45,161 nt of DNA from Candidatus Parcubacteria bacterium. GTDB taxonomy: Bacteria; Patescibacteriota; Saccharimonadia; UBA4664; JAHWKN01. The position numbers were made by a program, and so were the translations under genes. The notes under the pieces were generated by a model. The model was not told the origin of the DNA and did no database searches. It saw only the letters and a program-made list of their open reading frames with translations. The stretch covers positions 1 to 45,161 of the forward strand of contig JAHWKN010000003.1 in NCBI GenBank assembly GCA_019347875.1, given 5' to 3'. Numbering within the stretch: position 1 is the stretch's first letter; each line of letters starts with the position of its first letter. Of the stretch, positions 1 to 45,161 are shown piece by piece.

Positions 1-235
1 AAGTAACCGGCCGAGGACTGTTTGAGGACGACCACAGGGAGGACGAGTTCCGCAGGCCTACAGCTTAACGGTAGCTGGAGGTGTTTCTAGCTGATGAGCC
101 GGCTTGGCAGTTTTTGGGTTACTTTTTGCTGCCAAAAAGTAACGAGAGAGGCGGTAGATAGGAGGATTAGGAGGGGGAAGGGTAGGACCGCTGGGGAGAG
201 GAGGATAGGCGGAGGCCACTTTTAGGCTTCCAGGC
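1..235. repeat. Dispersed inverted-repeat element, partial copy A (one arm)
   Basis: This gene-free start of the window is one arm of a repeat seen again at 9.1-9.6 kb and 44.8-45.2 kb. It holds the shared boxes CCGAGGACTGTTTGAG (about 10-25) and CGAGTTCCGCAGGCC (44-58). About 33 consecutive bases (24-56) match the copy at 9487-9519. The arm ends in a perfect 11-bp hairpin with a CTGC loop (118-143), followed by a purine-rich GGAGG tract to about 235 that is also present beside the other copies. The other arm lies outside the window. No coding region is visible. Confidence 0.8.
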
Positions 236-4129: not shown

Positions 4130-4994
4130 AAAGTACCGACTACTGGGGGTGGAGGTAGACGCCGCTACCACCGCGCAGGCTATCGATTACATAGCCGCTG
4201 TGGCAGCCAACCCCCAGTCGCCGGCCTGCTACGTCACCAAACCGTACGTCGAGTTTCTAGACCAGGCCTATGCAGATCGCGAGATTCGCCAGCTGCTGAA
4301 CCAATCCGAACTGAGCATGGCCGACGGCGTGGCGCTGAGCTGGGCGGCCTACTACCTTTACGGCGGGGCGCACAACGTCGGGCGTCTGTTTTACACTTTA
4401 GCTCAAATTGTGTTGCAGCCTGATGCGCTACGTAAGATTTTGCCTGAGCGGGCCGCCGGCACCAACTTTACCTGGCCGCTGCTTGAGCGCTGCCAGTCAC
4501 AACGTCTATCTGTTTTTCTGATCGGCTCGCCCAAACATAACGCAATTACCTATACCGCCGCCGCCATCAAGCGGCGTCTGCCGGATCTGCAAATCGTCGG
4601 TACGGCGGCCGGTGAAGTTGCCGGCCAGCAACACGCCCAGCTACAGACGGCGCTCAGGACCGGGCATCCGGAAAGGGAGTTGGCCGAGACGCTGATGCTC
4701 GCTAAGCCGGACGTCATCCTGGTCGGCATGGGTTTCCCCCTGCAAGAGCAGCTGATGGCGCGGCTGGTACAACATCTGCCGCACGGGGTGCTGATCGGCG
4801 AGGGGGGAACCTTCGATTACCGCTCCTTCGGCGGGCAGCGGCCAAAAGCCCCGCGACTGATGCAGGCAACAGGCCTGGAGTGGCTGTGGCGGTTGATGCT
4901 TGAGCCCCGGCGCCTGCGCCGGCAGCTGGCCATCCCGCGCTTTATCTGGCGGGTGTGGCGGGAAGGTAAAAAGGGTCTTGGTGCTAACACATAG
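4107..4994 (+). CDS. WecG/TagA/CpsF family glycosyltransferase
   Basis: A 295-aa GT26-family enzyme, longer than the usual roughly 245 aa. The diagnostic SMADGVALSWAA motif (family Asp in ADG) lies near residue 72, the nucleotide-sugar region has VILVGMGFPLQEQ, and the C-terminal hallmark GLEWLWRLMLEPRR is present. Known members add N-acetylmannosamine or N-acetylmannosaminuronic acid to an undecaprenyl-linked acceptor for teichoic acid or polysaccharide synthesis. The C-terminal basic/aromatic helix fits peripheral membrane attachment. The GTG start lies inside the upstream membrane-protein gene (23-bp overlap), so the two are co-expressed. The donor sugar is not predictable. Confidence 0.88.
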   Translation: MSQQTKFKKYRLLGVEVDAATTAQAIDYIAAVAANPQSPACYVTKPYVEFLDQAYADREIRQLLNQSELSMADGVALSWAAYYLYGGAHNVGRLFYTLAQIVLQPDALRKILPERAAGTNFTWPLLERCQSQRLSVFLIGSPKHNAITYTAAAIKRRLPDLQIVGTAAGEVAGQQHAQLQTALRTGHPERELAETLMLAKPDVILVGMGFPLQEQLMARLVQHLPHGVLIGEGGTFDYRSFGGQRPKAPRLMQATGLEWLWRLMLEPRRLRRQLAIPRFIWRVWREGKKGLGANT

Positions 4995-7163: not shown

Positions 7164-8603
7164 ATGAAACAACCGGTACGAGTCCGCTTTGCGCCCAGCC
7201 CGACAGGATCACTGCATCTGGGGGGTATTCGCTCAGCCTTGTTCAACTGGCTGTACAGCCGCAAATCCGGCGGACGTCTTGTTCTCCGCATAGAAGATAC
7301 CGACCGTGAGCGCTACGTGCCAGAAGCGGTCAATCAGATCCAAGAAAGTTTGGCTTGGCTGGGGCTAGAACCCGATGAGGGCGGAAAGGCCGGCGGCCAG
7401 TTCGGTCCTTATGCTCAATCCGAACGTTTGCCCTTGTATAAAACCGCGGCTGAAAAACTGGTAGCGGATGGGTGGCTGTACCCCTGCTGGTGCAGCTCCG
7501 AGCGCCTCACTCAACTGCGCCAAGCGGCCCAGGCCAACCACACCGCCTTTAAATACGACCGCTACTGCCTAAAACACCCCCAAGACAAAGGCGGACCCCA
7601 TGTACTGCGCTTTAAAGTACCCGATGAACCGGCCACAGTCCGGTGGGATGACGCGGTTAAGGGGATGCTAGAGTTTCAAACCAAAGAGCAGGACGACTTC
7701 GTGGCGGTCAAAAGCGACGGCTACCCCACCTACAACTTCGCCAACGTGGTGGACGACCACGCCATGCAGATCAGCCACGTTTTACGGGCGGAGGAGTTTA
7801 TACCCAGCACCCCGAAGCATATTTTACTGTACCAAGCTTATGGCTGGGAAACGCCGGTCTTTGCGCACCTGCCGCAGGTCCTAGGAAGTGATAAGAGCAA
7901 ACTAAGCAAGCGCCACGGCGCCAAATCGGTACTGGAGTATCGCGATGAGGGTTACTTGCCCGAGGCGGTGATCAACTTTTTAGCCGGGCTGGGCTGGAAC
8001 GCCGGTGAGGGTTCGACCAAGGAGATTTATACCCGCGAGGAGCTGACAAACGCGTTTAGTCTGGAGCGCGTCCAATCCAGCCCGGCGGTGTTCGACCCCG
8101 AGCGGCTCAACTGGCTAAACGGCGTCTACATCCGCTCGCTGCCGCTGGACCGGCTGGCTGAGGCCTGTGCAGGTTTTTGGCCTGCGGTAGCCGCTAAAGC
8201 CAAGGCCGACCATAAAAAAGCGGTGCTGGCACTGGTACAGGAGCGCTTAAAGTACCTAGCCGAGCTGCCGGAGCTGACCCGGTTCTTCTTTACCGATCCA
8301 GCCAGCCTGCCCTTCGATCAGCTAAAGACCGACCCGGCCGCCGCCAAAACCTACCTCCAGGCCAGCCTGGAGGGGCTGGAGGCCGCTAACTTTACCCATG
8401 CGGAGCTGGAAGCGACCCTGCGCGGGCTGGCCGAGCGGCTGGAGGTTAAACCGGGAGCGTTGTTTGGCGTCGTGCGCGTTGCCATCACCGGCCAGACGGC
8501 CGCTCCCGGTTTATTTGAGACCATGCTGGTGTTAGGACGCGAAGCGGTGCTTAGGAGACTGAAAACCGCCCGGGATAGGCTGGCAGAGACGGCAAAAAGT
8601 TGA
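7164..8603 (+). CDS. gltX: Glutamyl-tRNA synthetase
   Basis: A 479-aa class I aminoacyl-tRNA synthetase that loads glutamate (and possibly glutamine, if an amidotransferase exists) onto tRNA. The HIGH-type signature is FAPSPTGSLHLGGIRSALFN near residue 9, the KMSKR-type loop is SKLSKRHGA near residue 249, and RIEDTDRERY marks the family. Cysteines in the WCSS...YCLK region (about residues 111-133) resemble the zinc-binding insertion of many GluRS. The C-terminal anticodon-binding domain is complete. A TAAGCT hexamer 7 nt before the ATG may be its -10. A tRNA-Glu(CUC), a likely substrate, is in the same window. Confidence 0.96.
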   Translation: MKQPVRVRFAPSPTGSLHLGGIRSALFNWLYSRKSGGRLVLRIEDTDRERYVPEAVNQIQESLAWLGLEPDEGGKAGGQFGPYAQSERLPLYKTAAEKLVADGWLYPCWCSSERLTQLRQAAQANHTAFKYDRYCLKHPQDKGGPHVLRFKVPDEPATVRWDDAVKGMLEFQTKEQDDFVAVKSDGYPTYNFANVVDDHAMQISHVLRAEEFIPSTPKHILLYQAYGWETPVFAHLPQVLGSDKSKLSKRHGAKSVLEYRDEGYLPEAVINFLAGLGWNAGEGSTKEIYTREELTNAFSLERVQSSPAVFDPERLNWLNGVYIRSLPLDRLAEACAGFWPAVAAKAKADHKKAVLALVQERLKYLAELPELTRFFFTDPASLPFDQLKTDPAAAKTYLQASLEGLEAANFTHAELEATLRGLAERLEVKPGALFGVVRVAITGQTAAPGLFETMLVLGREAVLRRLKTARDRLAETAKS

Positions 8604-8980: not shown

Positions 8981-8995
8981 GATTAGCCTGTGCGC

Positions 8996-9020
8996 TACTC
9001 TCGTTACTTTTTGACAGCTT
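8996..9020. repeat. Possible remnant of a repeat-element end
   Basis: CTCTCGTTACTTTTTG matches the reverse complement of the outer end of copy A (positions 128-147), but the second half of the hairpin is missing. It may be a decayed end of another copy, placed about 100 bp outside the complete element at 9121. Confidence 0.45.
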
Positions 9021-9120
9021 TTCGGACTCGCTCAGAGTCTTCGACGGTTCATCACCTCCCACCCCTCTTCGCAGTGGTCTCACATATACTCCTCCTAATC
9101 TCCCCGTAACCCGCTCTTTC

Positions 9121-9602
9121 GTCACTTTTGCTCCGTCAAAAGTAACCAAAACCGGCCGAGTAGGTCACTAACTCCAAGCCATCCAGCCCGCAAAAGGCCG
9201 GGCCTGCGGAACTCGCTCCGATTGCATCGGGGCTCAAACAGTCCTCGGCCTAATTCGGCCTTTTCCGGTCTGGCTGTTTGGGGTTAGCTCCAATACTCGG
9301 GGTTGGTAGGAGGGATTGGAGGATTAGAGATTGAAGACCAGGATAAAACATTGTCCTAAAATCCTAGTTTCCCTTAATCTTAGGCCTGTGAATCCTCGAG
9401 CTTTGGCAAAACCGGCAGTGAAGAGCGACAGTAGCTTTATCTATGTATTTTAACTACCGCTCGAGGACTTCCGGCAGCTGCCGGATGAGGACGACCACAG
9501 GGAGGACGAGTTCCGCAGGGCCCCAAGCTAATGGCGTGATGAGCAGACCGCGTTTTGACACCAGCTCGGCAGTTTTGGCTACCTTTTGCTGACAAAAGGT
9601 AG
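9121..9602. repeat. Dispersed inverted-repeat element, complete copy B
   Basis: Most of the roughly 800-bp gene-free stretch 8932-9737 is this element. The left arm (9121-9303) is about 180 bp and closely matches the left arm of copy C at 44811-44983. It contains GGCCTGCGGAACTCG (9201-9215) and the CAAACAGTCCTCGGCC box. The right arm (about 9454-9602) carries the inverse, CGAGTTCCGCAGG (9507-9519), and ends in the hairpin CTACCTTTTG-CTGA-CAAAAGGTAG (9579-9602). The left end has a similar, slightly mismatched hairpin. The centre (9304-9453) is unrelated to the centre of copy C. Purine-rich sequence follows to about 9700. No plausible gene lies inside. Confidence 0.8.
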
Positions 9603-9725
9603 AAGAGGAGGATCTAGGGGGAGGCTAGGAGGGTAGGCGGTAGGCCCGCTGCGACGAGGGTTGAGGGGGCGGGGTAACCTTGAGACTTTAGGCCGAGGCG
9701 GGTTTAACCATAAGCGTAAAAGTGA

Positions 9726-9737: not shown

Positions 9738-10991
9738 ATGGACCCAAACACCAACGCCAGCCCCCGTCCAGGGGCGGTCGTCAAGCCGCAATCCGGCACC
9801 ACTCCACCCCCCATCAAACCCATTCAATTCGGCCCCTCCGCTCAGCCTAATCCGATCTTGCCTGCTGGCGCGCCCATACCCGGGCAGCAGCCAGGTGCCA
9901 CCCGTCGCCAGCGCCTACTAGCTTGGATTAAAGCCCACCCCCGCCGCAGCGCCGCTATAGCTGCCATCAGCCTGCTGGTTGTATCCGCCGCTGGTTATGC
10001 CACATTCAAGTATCTAACCAAGCAGCCCCCGGCTCCTCCCGCCGAGACTACCGCGCCCGCGCCTCCGCCCGCGCCTCCCAAACCGGCCACCAAGCCCTCT
10101 CCGCTGACCGGCGTAGAGCTGGAACCGGCGCTGGCCGAGCGGCCGGTTAGCGCCGTTATCATCGAAAACCACCCTAATGCGCGTCCGCAGTCGGGCCTCG
10201 GCCAGGCCGGTGTGGTGTATGAGGCGTTGGCCGAAGGGGGCATTACCCGCTTTATGGCGCTTTATTTGGAGCAGCGGGCCCCGGCTCTGGGACCTATCCG
10301 CAGCGTCAGGACCTATTTTGTCGACTGGGCGCTGGAGTTCGACGCTCCGGTAGCCCACGTGGGCGGTAACGCCGACGCGCTCGACCTGGTCGCGCCGCTG
10401 GGCTTAAAAAGTCTCACCCAGTTCGCCCATCCCGGTTCATACTACCGCAGCCGTGACCGCTTCGCCCCCCACAACGCCTACACCTCGAGCGACCTGCTAG
10501 ACCAGCTGCTAGCCAAACTGGGCTTCAATCAGCCGGCCAAGTTCAAGCCGTCGCCGCGCAAGCCCGACTCACCTCCGGCGGCCGGGACGGCCGCCACCGC
10601 CCCCACCATCGGTATCAACTACTCCTACCGCGGCTTCCAGGTCGAGTACCGCTACGACGCGGCCACCAACTCCTACGCCCGCTTCATGGCCGGGGCGCCG
10701 CACGTCGACCGTAACGACGGCAAGCAGATCATGGCCAAAAACGTTGTGGTTCAGTACATGCCCACCAGATACGGAGTCACCCGCATCGGCGAAGCCACCG
10801 TCATTATGGGCACACCCGGCAGCGGCCAGGCGGTGGTGTTTCGCGATGGGGGAGCCGTCACCGGCACCTGGAGTAAAGCCTCACACCGGGAGCGCACGGT
10901 CCTGAAAGACACCACCGGCGCCGAGATACCTCTAAACGCCGGCAACACCTGGTACTCGATTGTACCGGTCGGGCGGTCGGTCTCGTACTAG
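9738..10991 (+). CDS. DUF3048 (YerB-like) membrane-anchored protein
   Basis: A 417-aa protein. A Pro-rich cytoplasmic N terminus (1-60) leads to one membrane helix (about 67-88, AAIAAISLLVVSAAGYATF), then a Pro/Ala spacer, then the two-part DUF3048 domain. The N-terminal half (about 118-255) has the family features RPVSAVIIENHPNARPQSGL, ADVVYE-like AGVVYEALAEGGITR and GPIRSVRTYFVDWA. The C-terminal half (about 290-417) includes VVVQYMPTRYG and TWYSIVPVG. Family members such as YerB are extracellular lipoproteins or anchored proteins of unknown biochemical role. The start is fixed by the -10 box 6 nt upstream. Confidence 0.88.
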   Translation: MDPNTNASPRPGAVVKPQSGTTPPPIKPIQFGPSAQPNPILPAGAPIPGQQPGATRRQRLLAWIKAHPRRSAAIAAISLLVVSAAGYATFKYLTKQPPAPPAETTAPAPPPAPPKPATKPSPLTGVELEPALAERPVSAVIIENHPNARPQSGLGQAGVVYEALAEGGITRFMALYLEQRAPALGPIRSVRTYFVDWALEFDAPVAHVGGNADALDLVAPLGLKSLTQFAHPGSYYRSRDRFAPHNAYTSSDLLDQLLAKLGFNQPAKFKPSPRKPDSPPAAGTAATAPTIGINYSYRGFQVEYRYDAATNSYARFMAGAPHVDRNDGKQIMAKNVVVQYMPTRYGVTRIGEATVIMGTPGSGQAVVFRDGGAVTGTWSKASHRERTVLKDTTGAEIPLNAGNTWYSIVPVGRSVSY

Positions 10992-42227: not shown

Positions 42228-42311
42228 AGTTAGTAATATTGACTAAAGTTGACGGCGGGGGAGGGCGGTTTTTGTCCGCTTTCGTCCTCAACACGTCCAG
42301 CCAAGCCAACC

Positions 42312-42317
42312 TATAAT
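42312..42317 (+). promoter_or_regulatory. -10 element of the PBP gene, leaderless geometry
   Basis: TATAAT, then AAAGCT (6 nt), then ATG at 42324. A TCAACA 18 nt upstream may be the -35. It argues against the ORF-track TTG start at 42249. Confidence 0.6.
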
Positions 42318-42323
42318 AAAGCT

Positions 42324-44696
42324 ATGCCTAAACCAGACAAGACCGACAAGCGAGAGTTTTACGAAGCCATCCCCGCGCCGGCGCGGTTAAACGACAACGA
42401 CGTCGGGCTGGACGATATCGGCCACGCCCTTGAAACGGCGGCGGCAAGGCTGCGCGCCGAGTGGCTCCGCATCAAGCCGCTGGCCCAAGCCGCCGTTTAT
42501 GACGGCGGCCAGTACGCCCTGGCGTTCGGGCGGGTCATGACCAGCCAAAGCGCCCGCCGTACCTACACCGCCGGGCTGACCCTGAGTTTGATCGCCGGGG
42601 CGGCGGTGGCGCTGCTGGTGGCTTCCAGTACCTACGCCATTTATGCCGGCGACCTGGCCAGCCCCGCGGCGCTGATGAACAAGAAGAACACCGGTACCAC
42701 CATTTTGGACCGCCACGGAGAGGTGCTGTACCGGGTGTACGGCGCCAGCAACCGCCAGCCGGTGAAGATGTCCGAGGTACCCGAAAACCTCATCCAAGCC
42801 ACCCTGGCCGCCGAAGACCCCAACTTTTACCAGCACGACGGGCTGTCGTGGCGGGGCACCTTGCGGGCGCTCTACCACGACGTCAAGACCGGCCGCAAGG
42901 CCCAGGGCGGCTCAACCATCACCCAGCAGTTGGTTAAAAACGCCCTGCTTGATCCAACCGACCGCTCCTTTGAGCGTAAGGCCCGCGAGGCCGTCTTGGC
43001 GGTTGAGCTGGAACGCCGCTACGACAAAGACCAGATCATGGAGATGTACCTAAACGGCATTTACTACGGCCAGGGGGCGCACGGGATCGGCTCGGCCGCC
43101 AAGACTTACTTTAACAAGCCGGTCAAGGACTTGAGTCTGGGCCAAAGCGCCCTGCTGGCGGGGTTGGTGCTGGCGCCCAGCCAGTGGGATCCGACCATCA
43201 ACCCCGAGGCTGCCCAGGGCCGGCGCAACTTTATATTGGAACGCATGCAGGAGCTGGAGTACATCACAGCGGCCGAGGCGGCGGCCGCCAAAGCCGAGCC
43301 GATCGAAGCCTCGGCCCGGCAAATCGAGATCAAGGCGCCCCACTTTGTGTTTTATGTCCTTAACCAGCTGCGGGCGACTTACGGCAGCGAGCTGGTTGAG
43401 CGCGGCGGCATCACCGTCCGCACCACGCTTGATCTGGGTAAGCAGCGAATCGGCGAAGACACCGTTAAGGCCCAACTCGCCAGCCTGCGCGGCCGCAACG
43501 CCACCAACGGAGCCTTGGTGTCGGTCGACCCGGCCACCGGTGACATATTAAGCATGGTCGGCAGCGTCGACTACTTTGCACCAGGCTACGGCAAGGTCAA
43601 CCTGGCGACGGCTTTGCGGCAGCCGGGATCGGCCATGAAGCCGATGGTTTACCTGTCGGCGTTCGAAAAGGGGTGGAACGGGGCCACCGTGGTGGAGGAT
43701 AAGCCCATCGCCATCCCGGATGGTGCCGGCAACGTTTACCGGCCGCAAAACTACGACCTCAAGTTCCACGGCCGCCAAACCCTGCGCAGCGCCTTAGCCA
43801 ACTCTTACAACATCCCGGCGGTCGAGGTGCTGCGCTTCGTCGGCGTACCGCCGGCCCTGGAGATGTCCCACCGGCTGGGCATTACCACGCTTAACGACCC
43901 CAGCCGCTACGGACTCAGCCTGGTGTTGGGCGGGGGAGAGGTGCGCATGATTGATATGGCGGCCGCTTACGGCACCCTGGCCAATCAAGGCACCCGGGTA
44001 ACTCCCGTGGCGATCAAGCAGGTCCAAAACCGCCTGGGCAAAGACATCACCAAGCCGGCCCAGCCCAAACCTAAAAAACCGGCTGTAGATCCCCGCCTGG
44101 TCTACATGCTCACCAGTATCTTAAGCGACAACGAGGCCCGCCGGCCGATGTTCGGCACCAACTCGCCGCTGAAGCTGTCACGGCCGGCGGCGGTCAAGAC
44201 CGGTACCACCAACGACTACAAAGACAACTGGACCGCCGGGTACACGCCGGATGTCGCCACGGTGGTGTGGGTCGGCAACAACGATGGCTCCCCAATGGTG
44301 AACGTCGACGGCGTGACCGGGGCGGCCCCGATCTGGAATCAGTACATGGAAGCGGTGCTGCGGGGAACGCCCGTAACCGACTTCGTCAAGCCGCCCGGCT
44401 TGGAGTCGGTCAGGGTATGTAAGTTTGACGGCGGCATCGCCAACCCGTGGGACGCCAGCGTGGAAGAGTTCTTCTTAGCCGAAGCCAAGCCGACCAAACG
44501 CTGCGGCACCAGCGCGCCGCGTCCCCGGGCGATACCGAGGCGGGAAGAGCCAGAAGAGGACGAGCGCAAACCCGACAAGGAAGAACGCCGCGGTCGCGAG
44601 GAGGAGAATGTAGGGGGCGGTGATTCAGAGGTACTGGTACCACCGACCGAGCCCAAACAGCCGGACCAGCCAGCCGACCCGTCGGACAGTGATTAA
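42324..44696 (+). CDS. Class A penicillin-binding protein (transglycosylase/transpeptidase)
   Basis: A 790-aa bifunctional peptidoglycan synthase. A cytoplasmic N terminus of about 80 residues precedes one membrane helix (AGLTLSLIAGAAVALLVASSTYAIYA). The GT51 domain has AAEDPNFYQHDGLSWRGTLRA (catalytic Glu), GGSTITQQLVKN and EMYLNGIYYGQGAHGIGSAA. The transpeptidase domain has SxxK (PGSAMKPM), SxN (SYN in LANSYNIPAVE) and KTG (KTGTTNDYKDNW). The acidic, Pro-rich tail (EEPEEDERKPDKEERRG...) is hydrophilic and lacks PASTA domains. It polymerises and cross-links glycan strands. The start is the ATG after TATAAT; the ORF track adds 25 residues upstream. Confidence 0.95.
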   Translation: MPKPDKTDKREFYEAIPAPARLNDNDVGLDDIGHALETAAARLRAEWLRIKPLAQAAVYDGGQYALAFGRVMTSQSARRTYTAGLTLSLIAGAAVALLVASSTYAIYAGDLASPAALMNKKNTGTTILDRHGEVLYRVYGASNRQPVKMSEVPENLIQATLAAEDPNFYQHDGLSWRGTLRALYHDVKTGRKAQGGSTITQQLVKNALLDPTDRSFERKAREAVLAVELERRYDKDQIMEMYLNGIYYGQGAHGIGSAAKTYFNKPVKDLSLGQSALLAGLVLAPSQWDPTINPEAAQGRRNFILERMQELEYITAAEAAAAKAEPIEASARQIEIKAPHFVFYVLNQLRATYGSELVERGGITVRTTLDLGKQRIGEDTVKAQLASLRGRNATNGALVSVDPATGDILSMVGSVDYFAPGYGKVNLATALRQPGSAMKPMVYLSAFEKGWNGATVVEDKPIAIPDGAGNVYRPQNYDLKFHGRQTLRSALANSYNIPAVEVLRFVGVPPALEMSHRLGITTLNDPSRYGLSLVLGGGEVRMIDMAAAYGTLANQGTRVTPVAIKQVQNRLGKDITKPAQPKPKKPAVDPRLVYMLTSILSDNEARRPMFGTNSPLKLSRPAAVKTGTTNDYKDNWTAGYTPDVATVVWVGNNDGSPMVNVDGVTGAAPIWNQYMEAVLRGTPVTDFVKPPGLESVRVCKFDGGIANPWDASVEEFFLAEAKPTKRCGTSAPRPRAIPRREEPEEDERKPDKEERRGREEENVGGGDSEVLVPPTEPKQPDQPADPSDSD

Positions 44697-44744
44697 AGCG
44701 ATACGAAAATACACATACTCATCTCGTCCGCCACGCCGCGTAGC

Positions 44745-45161
44745 GACGCCACCCCTACCGCAGCGGCCCTACCGTCTATCCTCCTAACCTCTCCCTAAAC
44801 CTCCCTCTTCTACCTTTTGTCAGCAAAAGGTAGCCAAAACTGCCGAGTAGGTCGCTAACTCCAAGCCAGCCAGCCCGTAAAAGGCCGGGCCTGCGGAACT
44901 CGTCCCTAGCGGTCCTCAAACAGTCCTCGGCCTTAATCGGCCTTTTCCGGTCTGGCTGTTTGGGGTTAGCTCCGATACTCGGGGATGTTGGGGCAGTCCC
45001 TGGTTTTAAAATCAAAAAAGATGGTTCTGCTTTCTCCTGCCAACCCCGAGCATTGGAGTGAGCCCCAAACAGCCGTACCGTCAGCGGCGGATAAAGCCGA
45101 GGACTGTTTGAGCCCCGATGCAATCGGAGCGAGTTCCGCAGGCCCGCCGGTGGCGGTTCGG
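44745..45161. repeat. Dispersed inverted-repeat element, partial copy C
   Basis: The gene-free end of the window. Pyrimidine-rich sequence (44750-44808, purine-rich on the other strand) leads to the end hairpin CTACCTTTTG-TCAG-CAAAAGGTAG (44811-44834) and a left arm (to 44983) that closely matches 9121-9303. A centre of about 60 bp follows, then the right arm from 45044, which is the inverted copy of the left: GCCGAGGACTGTTTGAG (45096-45111, nearly the same as 10-25) and CGAGTTCCGCAGGCC (45130-45144). The copy is cut by the window end. The ORF at 44776-45123 (minus) follows the repeat and is not taken as a gene. Confidence 0.8.

Follow-up and report, generated by a model that had tools for sequence, protein, structure and literature searches.

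The inverted repeats that we analyzed are copies of a small, dispersed DNA element built around an almost invariant core of about 25 letters, and this core, shared by many bacterial phyla, appears to have gone unnamed. The element has a defined hairpin structure, is present at a site where a relative lacks it, and in three genomes is oriented with replication. We regard it as probable, though far from certain, that it is a non-autonomous, replication-coupled element that acts as a hairpin of single-stranded DNA and is moved by a putative enzyme supplied in trans.

The window, that is, the whole stretch of 45,161 nucleotides, is the entire contig C33 of its genome (G000), whose assembly comprises 788,579 bp in 40 contigs and is 85% complete; relatives from the same class mostly have genomes of 0.5-1.3 Mb. 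The first-pass annotation had noticed three copies, here called A, B and C, and they are located where it placed them; however, it described the element as shorter than it is, since 55 outward flanks are conserved to about 107 nt beyond the terminal hairpin. Copy B is complete and runs on the plus strand from a left end to a right end of the gamma type (9048-9682, limits from the flank profile), between a glutamyl-tRNA synthetase gene (7164-8603) and a DUF3048 gene (9738-10991). Its left terminal hairpin, GTCACTTTTGCTCCGTCAAAAGTAAC, at 9121-9146 is followed by CAAAAC, and its left core on the plus strand, GCGGAACTC-GCTCCGATTGCATCGGGGC-TCAAACAGTCCTCG (9206-9247), has the stem1 arms AAAAGGCC and GGCCTTTT. 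The right core (9462-9519, minus strand), read directly, is a variant with the palindrome TCCGGCAGCTGCCGGA in place of GTTTGA, and the right terminal hairpin, TACCTTTTGCTGACAAAAGGTA, lies at 9580-9601. Copy A, a partial right-type end on the minus strand (1-230, outer limit from the flank profile), has a core read in the sequence as CGAGGACTGTTT-stem2-CGAGTTCCGC (12-55, minus strand) and a T-rich terminal hairpin, GTTACTTTTTGCTGCCAAAAAGTAAC, at 118-143. Copy C, also partial (44725-45161, plus strand, from repeat finding and the flank profile), lies directly downstream of a penicillin-binding-protein gene (42249-44696) and contains a left terminal hairpin, TACCTTTTGTCAGCAAAAGGTA (44811-44832; all terminal hairpins were placed from the sequence and a survey of ends), and a left core, GCGGAACTC-GTCCCTAGCGGTCC-TCAAACAGTCCTCG (44893-44929, plus strand). 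Its second core (45098-45139, minus strand) is inverted but of the left-arm type, with GCTCCGATTGCATCGGGGC as stem2 and ACCGGCGG/CCGCCGCTGG as stem1. C is therefore no simple pairing of a left with a right arm, as its two visible arms are both left-type. Repeat finding bears out the similarity and inversion of the arms: the left arms of B and C are 89-90% identical over 79 and 83 nt, A and the right arm of B are 86% identical over 49 nt, and B matches C in inverted orientation over 94 nt (88%) and over 59 nt (95%). About 110 bp to the left of B, at 8993-9018, the window also holds half a terminal hairpin (CGTTACTTTTTGACAGC) without a partner; similar halves lie outside copies on contigs C5, C17, C18, C32 and C40, as if they were remnants of earlier copies.

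When all 40 contigs of G000 were read as stretches in the element survey, 56 element ends were found (36 left or gamma, 20 beta), and the core pattern described below finds 32 exact cores. Outermost in each arm is a conserved pyrimidine-rich tract, CCTCCAACCCCTCTTCGCAGCGG...CCTCCTAACCTCCC; inside it lie a terminal hairpin, TACCTTTTGTCAGCAAAAGGTA or GTTACTTTTTGTCAGCAAAAAGTAAC, an A-rich stretch (CAAAA) and, further inward, the core between the two arms of the variable stem1. The core itself reads CTGCGGAACTC-stem2-TCAAACAGTCCTCG and is enclosed by stem1. Each element combines a left end with one of two types of right end, gamma or beta; two hairpin units face each other with the T-rich terminal hairpins as bounds. 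In the left arms, the 5' arm AAAAGGCC is found with the 3' arm GGCCTTTT 13 times and ACCGGCGG with CCGCCGCTGG eight times, and only one arm is mixed (Fisher p=2.8e-5). The hairpin segments that had seemed to be swapped within an arm are real: they correspond to the variable stem2 and this paired stem1 module, and represent compensatory stem replacement. Some ends are composite, with a beta end inside a gamma end in C31, exactly at the CTGCG/GAACTCG junction, and chimeric ends in C28 and at C35:23768. A lone divergent core at G000:C40:11806, with a 37-nt stem2 (CAGTCTGGGCGTCGGCGTTCGCCGCCACTCGGTGGG) and no terminal hairpin, has a layout nearer to that of elements in other taxa, which consist of a single hairpin.

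Both ends of the window break within the element, and 50 of the 80 contig ends in G000 have an element motif no more than 400 bp away, compared with only 6.6% of the genome that is this close to one. Copies A and C are therefore partial because the assembly breaks there, and the element explains the fragmentation of this assembly. Four contig ends, those of C21 (3'), C24, C29 and C36 (5'; L079:1-127), carry a perfect heptamer array, (AGTGAGG)n, with 18 copies in C36; these are probably the ends of one or more longer satellite arrays, which also break the assembly.

The three copies had been seen as a local feature, but their scope is far wider. The pattern GCGGAACTCG-N4-34-AAACAGTCCTCG, run on the GTDB contig collection with the genome of the window excluded, matches at least 115 stretches from at least 10 phyla among the matches listed. 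These include Pseudomonadota, Patescibacteria (Saccharibacteria and others among the carriers listed), Bacillota (Lachnospiraceae), Actinomycetota (Eggerthellaceae, Coriobacteriia), Bacteroidota, Myxococcota, Nitrospirota, Omnitrophota, Desulfobacterota and Cyanobacteriota/Gastranaerophilales. Across 16 genomes the number of exact copies ranges from 1 to 52, and the reversed control pattern gives no match in these 16 genomes or in 393 genomes of the class to which G000 belongs. The element occurs in 13 of those 393 genomes and in 6 of 380 drawn from the whole phylum; its distribution is therefore patchy. The core is invariant across phyla while the rest of the element diverges; the conservation quoted for the boxes is partly set by the exact-match search, and the variation seen despite it is small (CAGACAG for CAAACAG, single changes). 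The 52 exact copies are found in a genome from the Myxococcota (G406, L305-L324), where stem2, of the GACATCGAATTATCCAAC type, pairs poorly, unlike in other groups. A viral carrier was considered and rejected: the sole match in IMG/VR lacks stem1 and lies within apparent coding sequence, and is for these reasons taken as chance. A betaproteobacterial arm has no match in annotated phages, and a plasmid search returned one weak match of 49 nt. In the literature, whose coverage was thin for subscription journals, so that an earlier description is possible, the core sequences appear in no relevant paper, and work on repeats, MITEs, structured RNAs and stem-loop families offers analogies only.

The first-pass annotation had named a lack of further copies, or an origin from rRNA, tRNA or coding sequence, as what would speak against its reading. 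Its suggestion to search this and related genomes has yielded the many copies described above, and neither origin is borne out. Rfam identifies a single tRNA in the window, none at the element, and gives no match to the element even at loose thresholds. The statement that no copy encodes a protein is correct insofar as the copies contain no conserved gene, although chance open frames cross many of them; the open frames that recur are translations of the element itself, and a protein-coding origin was rejected.

The stems have changed in a way that preserves pairing. Across taxa, the two stem1 arms of an element match each other with a median score of 13, compared with 6 between arms of different elements. 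Because counts of G-T and A-C mismatches are by themselves ambiguous as to DNA or RNA, we used column-wise covariation in one Patescibacteria family (18 copies from G404 and two relatives, 34 pairs; the copies are kin and not independent). In this set 92.4% of the cells are paired, and 23 of the 34 pairs, amounting to 117 cells, have changed on both sides, a value reached in none of 500 shuffles and far above the at most 22 cells of slid structures; only 3 cells have changed on one side. A family from the Eggerthellaceae, analyzed with RNAalifold, has two-sided changes in 23 of 36 pairs. This ratio of 117 to 3 indicates that the stems behave as DNA inverted repeats rather than as RNA, because selection on an RNA would leave many G-U steps. 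Stem2 is 82% paired, compared with 51% when its halves are shuffled (maximum 57%), and 27 of the 49 fully paired stem2 sequences have TTC, TGC or TAC loops, which are C-GNA-G (GNA triloops) on the other strand. Mini-hairpins of the d(C-GNA-G) type are exceptionally stable in DNA, so that these loops also speak for DNA rather than RNA.

In each of the 20 distinct terminal motifs from proteobacterial elements, the hairpin precedes an exact mirror copy of its own purine arm (identity 1.000, shuffled maximum 0.966), as in AAGAAAAAG-TAACC-AAAAAGAA and AAAAGAAAG-TAGCC-AAAGAAAA. These ends have the form of an intrastrand triplex motif, and the window contains short A4-A5 mirrors only. From their sequence, the proteobacterial mirror repeats should be able to form intrastrand DNA triplexes; triplexes of the purine motif cannot be formed by RNA (PMC4666352).

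A comparison of two colinear relatives that are 78-87% identical (L104 and L205) illustrates the mobility of the element. Between genes that we named mreB and mreC from reading their translations, L104 has about 148 bp with a complete hairpin element, whereas L205 has 7 bp from stop to start; between mreC and murB, named likewise, the element is found in L205 and not in L104, which has an unrelated palindromic spacer there. This pattern, from a single pair and compatible with insertion as well as deletion, shows that an individual site can acquire or lose a copy. Together with the roughly 56 ends in G000 and the nested and chimeric copies, it upholds the earlier proposal of a mobile non-coding element. 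No clean target duplication is seen at this pair, nor by eye at two complete copies in G000. At L104:917-1062, where L205 has the element, there is a different palindromic repeat (CCCCTTTATTAAAGGGG ... CCCCCTTTGTTAAAGGGGG).

With replication direction inferred from GC skew over about 20 kb, mostly in draft genomes and with crude calling of open frames, the core points along the leading-strand direction in 21 of 21 copies in G404, 8 of 8 in G695 and 8 of 10 in G011, so that 37 of 39 copies in these three Patescibacteria genomes lie along the replication fork; for open frames the corresponding shares are 75%, 65% and 78%. In G000, 34 of 47 ends agree with replication (p=0.003, the ends of one element not being independent), and the bias is absent from the Lachnospiraceae (4/7) and the Eggerthellaceae (9/15). 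Copies between co-directional genes also tend to have the coding orientation (17 of 19 in G404 and five further Patescibacteria copies). However, where genes and fork disagree the core follows replication, namely in five copies for which both neighboring frames run against replication; replication is therefore the better explanation of the coding orientation. Dependence on the lagging-strand template is described for IS608-type elements and for attC sites (PMC6006769, PMC5371416). Stem mismatches in most groups are A-C more often than G-T, which suggests better folding of the other strand, the one that in Patescibacteria is located on the leading template; G000 has the opposite pattern. Because the mismatches favor folding of the complementary strand in most groups, the orientation bias may reflect survival, in that copies oriented with the better hairpin on the lagging template are lost, and not insertion.

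Neighboring inverted cores fall into two classes with no spacing in between: 24 listed pairs are 174-344 bp apart (a few listed twice under two locus ids), and six are 1.1-1.7 kb apart. Between the cores of the latter, which come from proteobacterial records as far as titles are known, there are one or two small genes (L161:3042-4760, L189, L169, L118, L116 and L124). The enclosed genes encode a DUF3800 protein (L189), an 8xMP protein (L118), a DUF2971 protein just under the cut-off (L161), and proteins with no Pfam match; none is a transposase and none matches a PADLOC defence model. The gene-enclosing pairs possibly represent a cassette-like cargo system. We also looked among the six long pairs for an autonomous copy with its transposase, and rejected this idea as no transposase is enclosed. 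Flanking the cargo element of L161, at 2860-2905 and 4890-4945, is another repeat in inverted orientation, GTAGGTTGGGTTAGC...GCGTAACCCAAC, which is REP-like and of the GTAG type.

No protein family recurs beside the elements at more than 100 loci, apart from the translations of the element itself. A Y1 transposase (Y1_Tnp, PF01797) of the RAYT kind was considered as partner. It occurs in 6 of 13 genomes with the element and in 78 of 380 others (Fisher p=0.038), but it is absent from G000, from 7 of 13 carriers in the class and from 8 of 16 carriers in other groups, and no core lies near it at 17 loci that were fetched. We rejected this candidate since the association is weak and there is no co-location with the core. 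Four Y1_Tnp loci that were checked have palindromes of their own: at L288-L290 and L292 the RAYT-like genes of G011, G404 and G407 lie beside palindromes of 15-28 nt, and REP/RAYT systems are thus also present in these genomes.

How such an element might move can be outlined as follows. The working unit would be a long imperfect DNA hairpin composed of stem1, CTGCGGAACTC, the variable stem2, TCAAACAGTCCTCG and the returning arm of stem1. At the replication fork, the strand with GCGGAACTC...CAGTCCTCG would serve as the lagging-strand template, become exposed as single strand, and fold. We infer that an enzyme acting in trans recognizes the invariant boxes close to the tip, which are unpaired or bulged, and that it cleaves and rejoins the DNA at this place. 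The stem arms would be kept complementary through fold-back copying or through selection for folding, which would explain why the stem sequence drifts and the boxes do not, and a passenger gene may ride between two units. Several points speak against this reading: no enzyme gene is linked to the element, the replication bias is missing from the Lachnospiraceae and Eggerthellaceae, the mismatch patterns allow the orientation to arise through loss, the one filled/empty pair shows no clean target duplication, and no transposition was observed.

The main rival, which we consider unlikely, is a passive palindrome without a dedicated enzyme that spreads through horizontal transfer, homologous recombination between copies and template switching during replication, and whose core is kept by the binding of a host protein. 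The lack of a partner gene agrees with it, the chimeric and nested ends (C28, C31, C35:23768) resemble recombination at short boxes, and fold-back copying could account for the two-sided stem changes. However, a core that stays invariant across phyla while all else diverges, and a clean difference of 148 bp between relatives, fit directed mobility better. Alternatively, the hairpins could be of the REP/RAYT type and mobilized by a Y1 (HUH) transposase of the IS200/TnpA_REP family. The hairpins themselves, the inverted doublets, the logic of mobilization in trans and the orientation with replication are similar, and the co-occurrence with Y1_Tnp points the same way; nevertheless, with PF01797 missing from G000 and about half of the other carriers, and with no core at the Y1_Tnp loci, we find this quite improbable, the more so as, according to PMC2817692, a RAYT gene always has its own REPs on its flanks.

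A multi-copy structured non-coding RNA, cis-regulatory or trans-acting, would be expected to covary as strongly as these stems do, and would fit the coding orientation of the copies in G404 and other Patescibacteria. The first-pass annotation had offered a large structured RNA as its second possibility, and this part of it has not stood up: the stems are exchanged by two-sided Watson-Crick changes with practically no G-U pairs, Rfam has no match, the proteobacterial ends carry purine triplex mirrors, the units form inverted doublets, and in Patescibacteria the orientation tracks replication and not transcription. We give an RNA very little credence. Less probable still is a MITE, the deletion derivative of an element with a DDE transposase. 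Small size, intergenic location, inverted arms and multiple copies would suit it, but the conserved part is at the tip of the hairpin and not at the ends, no target duplication was seen at the filled/empty pair or at two complete copies in G000, and no transposase was found with the element ends.

Returning to the enzyme-driven hairpin as the preferred explanation, we put forward, as a tentative possibility only, that it constitutes a separate class of mobile DNA: a single-stranded hairpin, invariant at its tip, that would insert at forks through a putative phylum-spanning enzyme and be able to pick up single genes between inverted units, cassette-like and without a linked integrase or transposase. 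If the preferred explanation is true, then a DNA-processing enzyme yet to be discovered, or a host function, recognizes the core across bacteria. The element also accounts for spurious open frames that recur in gene predictions, and provides a natural system for reading replication-strand use, DNA triplexes and fold-back repair from sequence.

The element resembles several known systems and differs from each of them. REP, BIME and REPIN sequences with their RAYT (TnpA_REP) genes are likewise dispersed intergenic DNA hairpins with inverted doublets and a patchy distribution, presumed to move in trans in single-stranded form, the same logic that we propose here (PMC2817692, PMC6006769). However, REPs measure 20-65 nt, have a GTAG-type foot and flank a RAYT gene, whereas the units of our element measure 90-650 bp and are invariant near the tip, with no GTAG or GTGG shared by their feet or flanks, and the genomes that carry it have no RAYT genes or have them with other palindromes. 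The CGTC-tagged palindromic repeats also occur in several phyla and were reported without a dedicated transposase, but these are short REPs whose CGTC tag is unpaired and which have a CCA tail, and their core differs (PMC3733652). BoxC/PIT/TM_ECO triplex repeats share the dispersed intergenic motif and the purine mirror as third strand; TM_ECO is a stand-alone, G/C-rich motif of 36 nt, whereas in our element an A/G-rich triplex motif makes up no more than the outer end (PMC4666352). MITEs are also small, non-coding and bounded by inverted repeats, but they keep the ends of their DDE transposon (PMC10969869); our element has no conserved terminal inverted repeats, its two ends in G000 are only partly alike, and its stem bases differ even within a genome while the tip is invariant. 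Integron attC sites are likewise hairpins of folded single strand in which some features are unpaired and the terminal structure varies, and they share with the element an orientation linked to the replication strand and, for some of its copies, single-gene cargo (PMC5371416, PMC8946536). The core boxes differ from those of attC (RYYYAAC ... GTTRRRY), no arrays were seen, and the GTTAAGC/GCTTAAC pair of the beta ends is in the reverse order. Moreover, attC conserves only 3 nt and a structure, whereas the element conserves about 25 nt and carries its cargo between inverted units (PMC5371416, PMC8946536).
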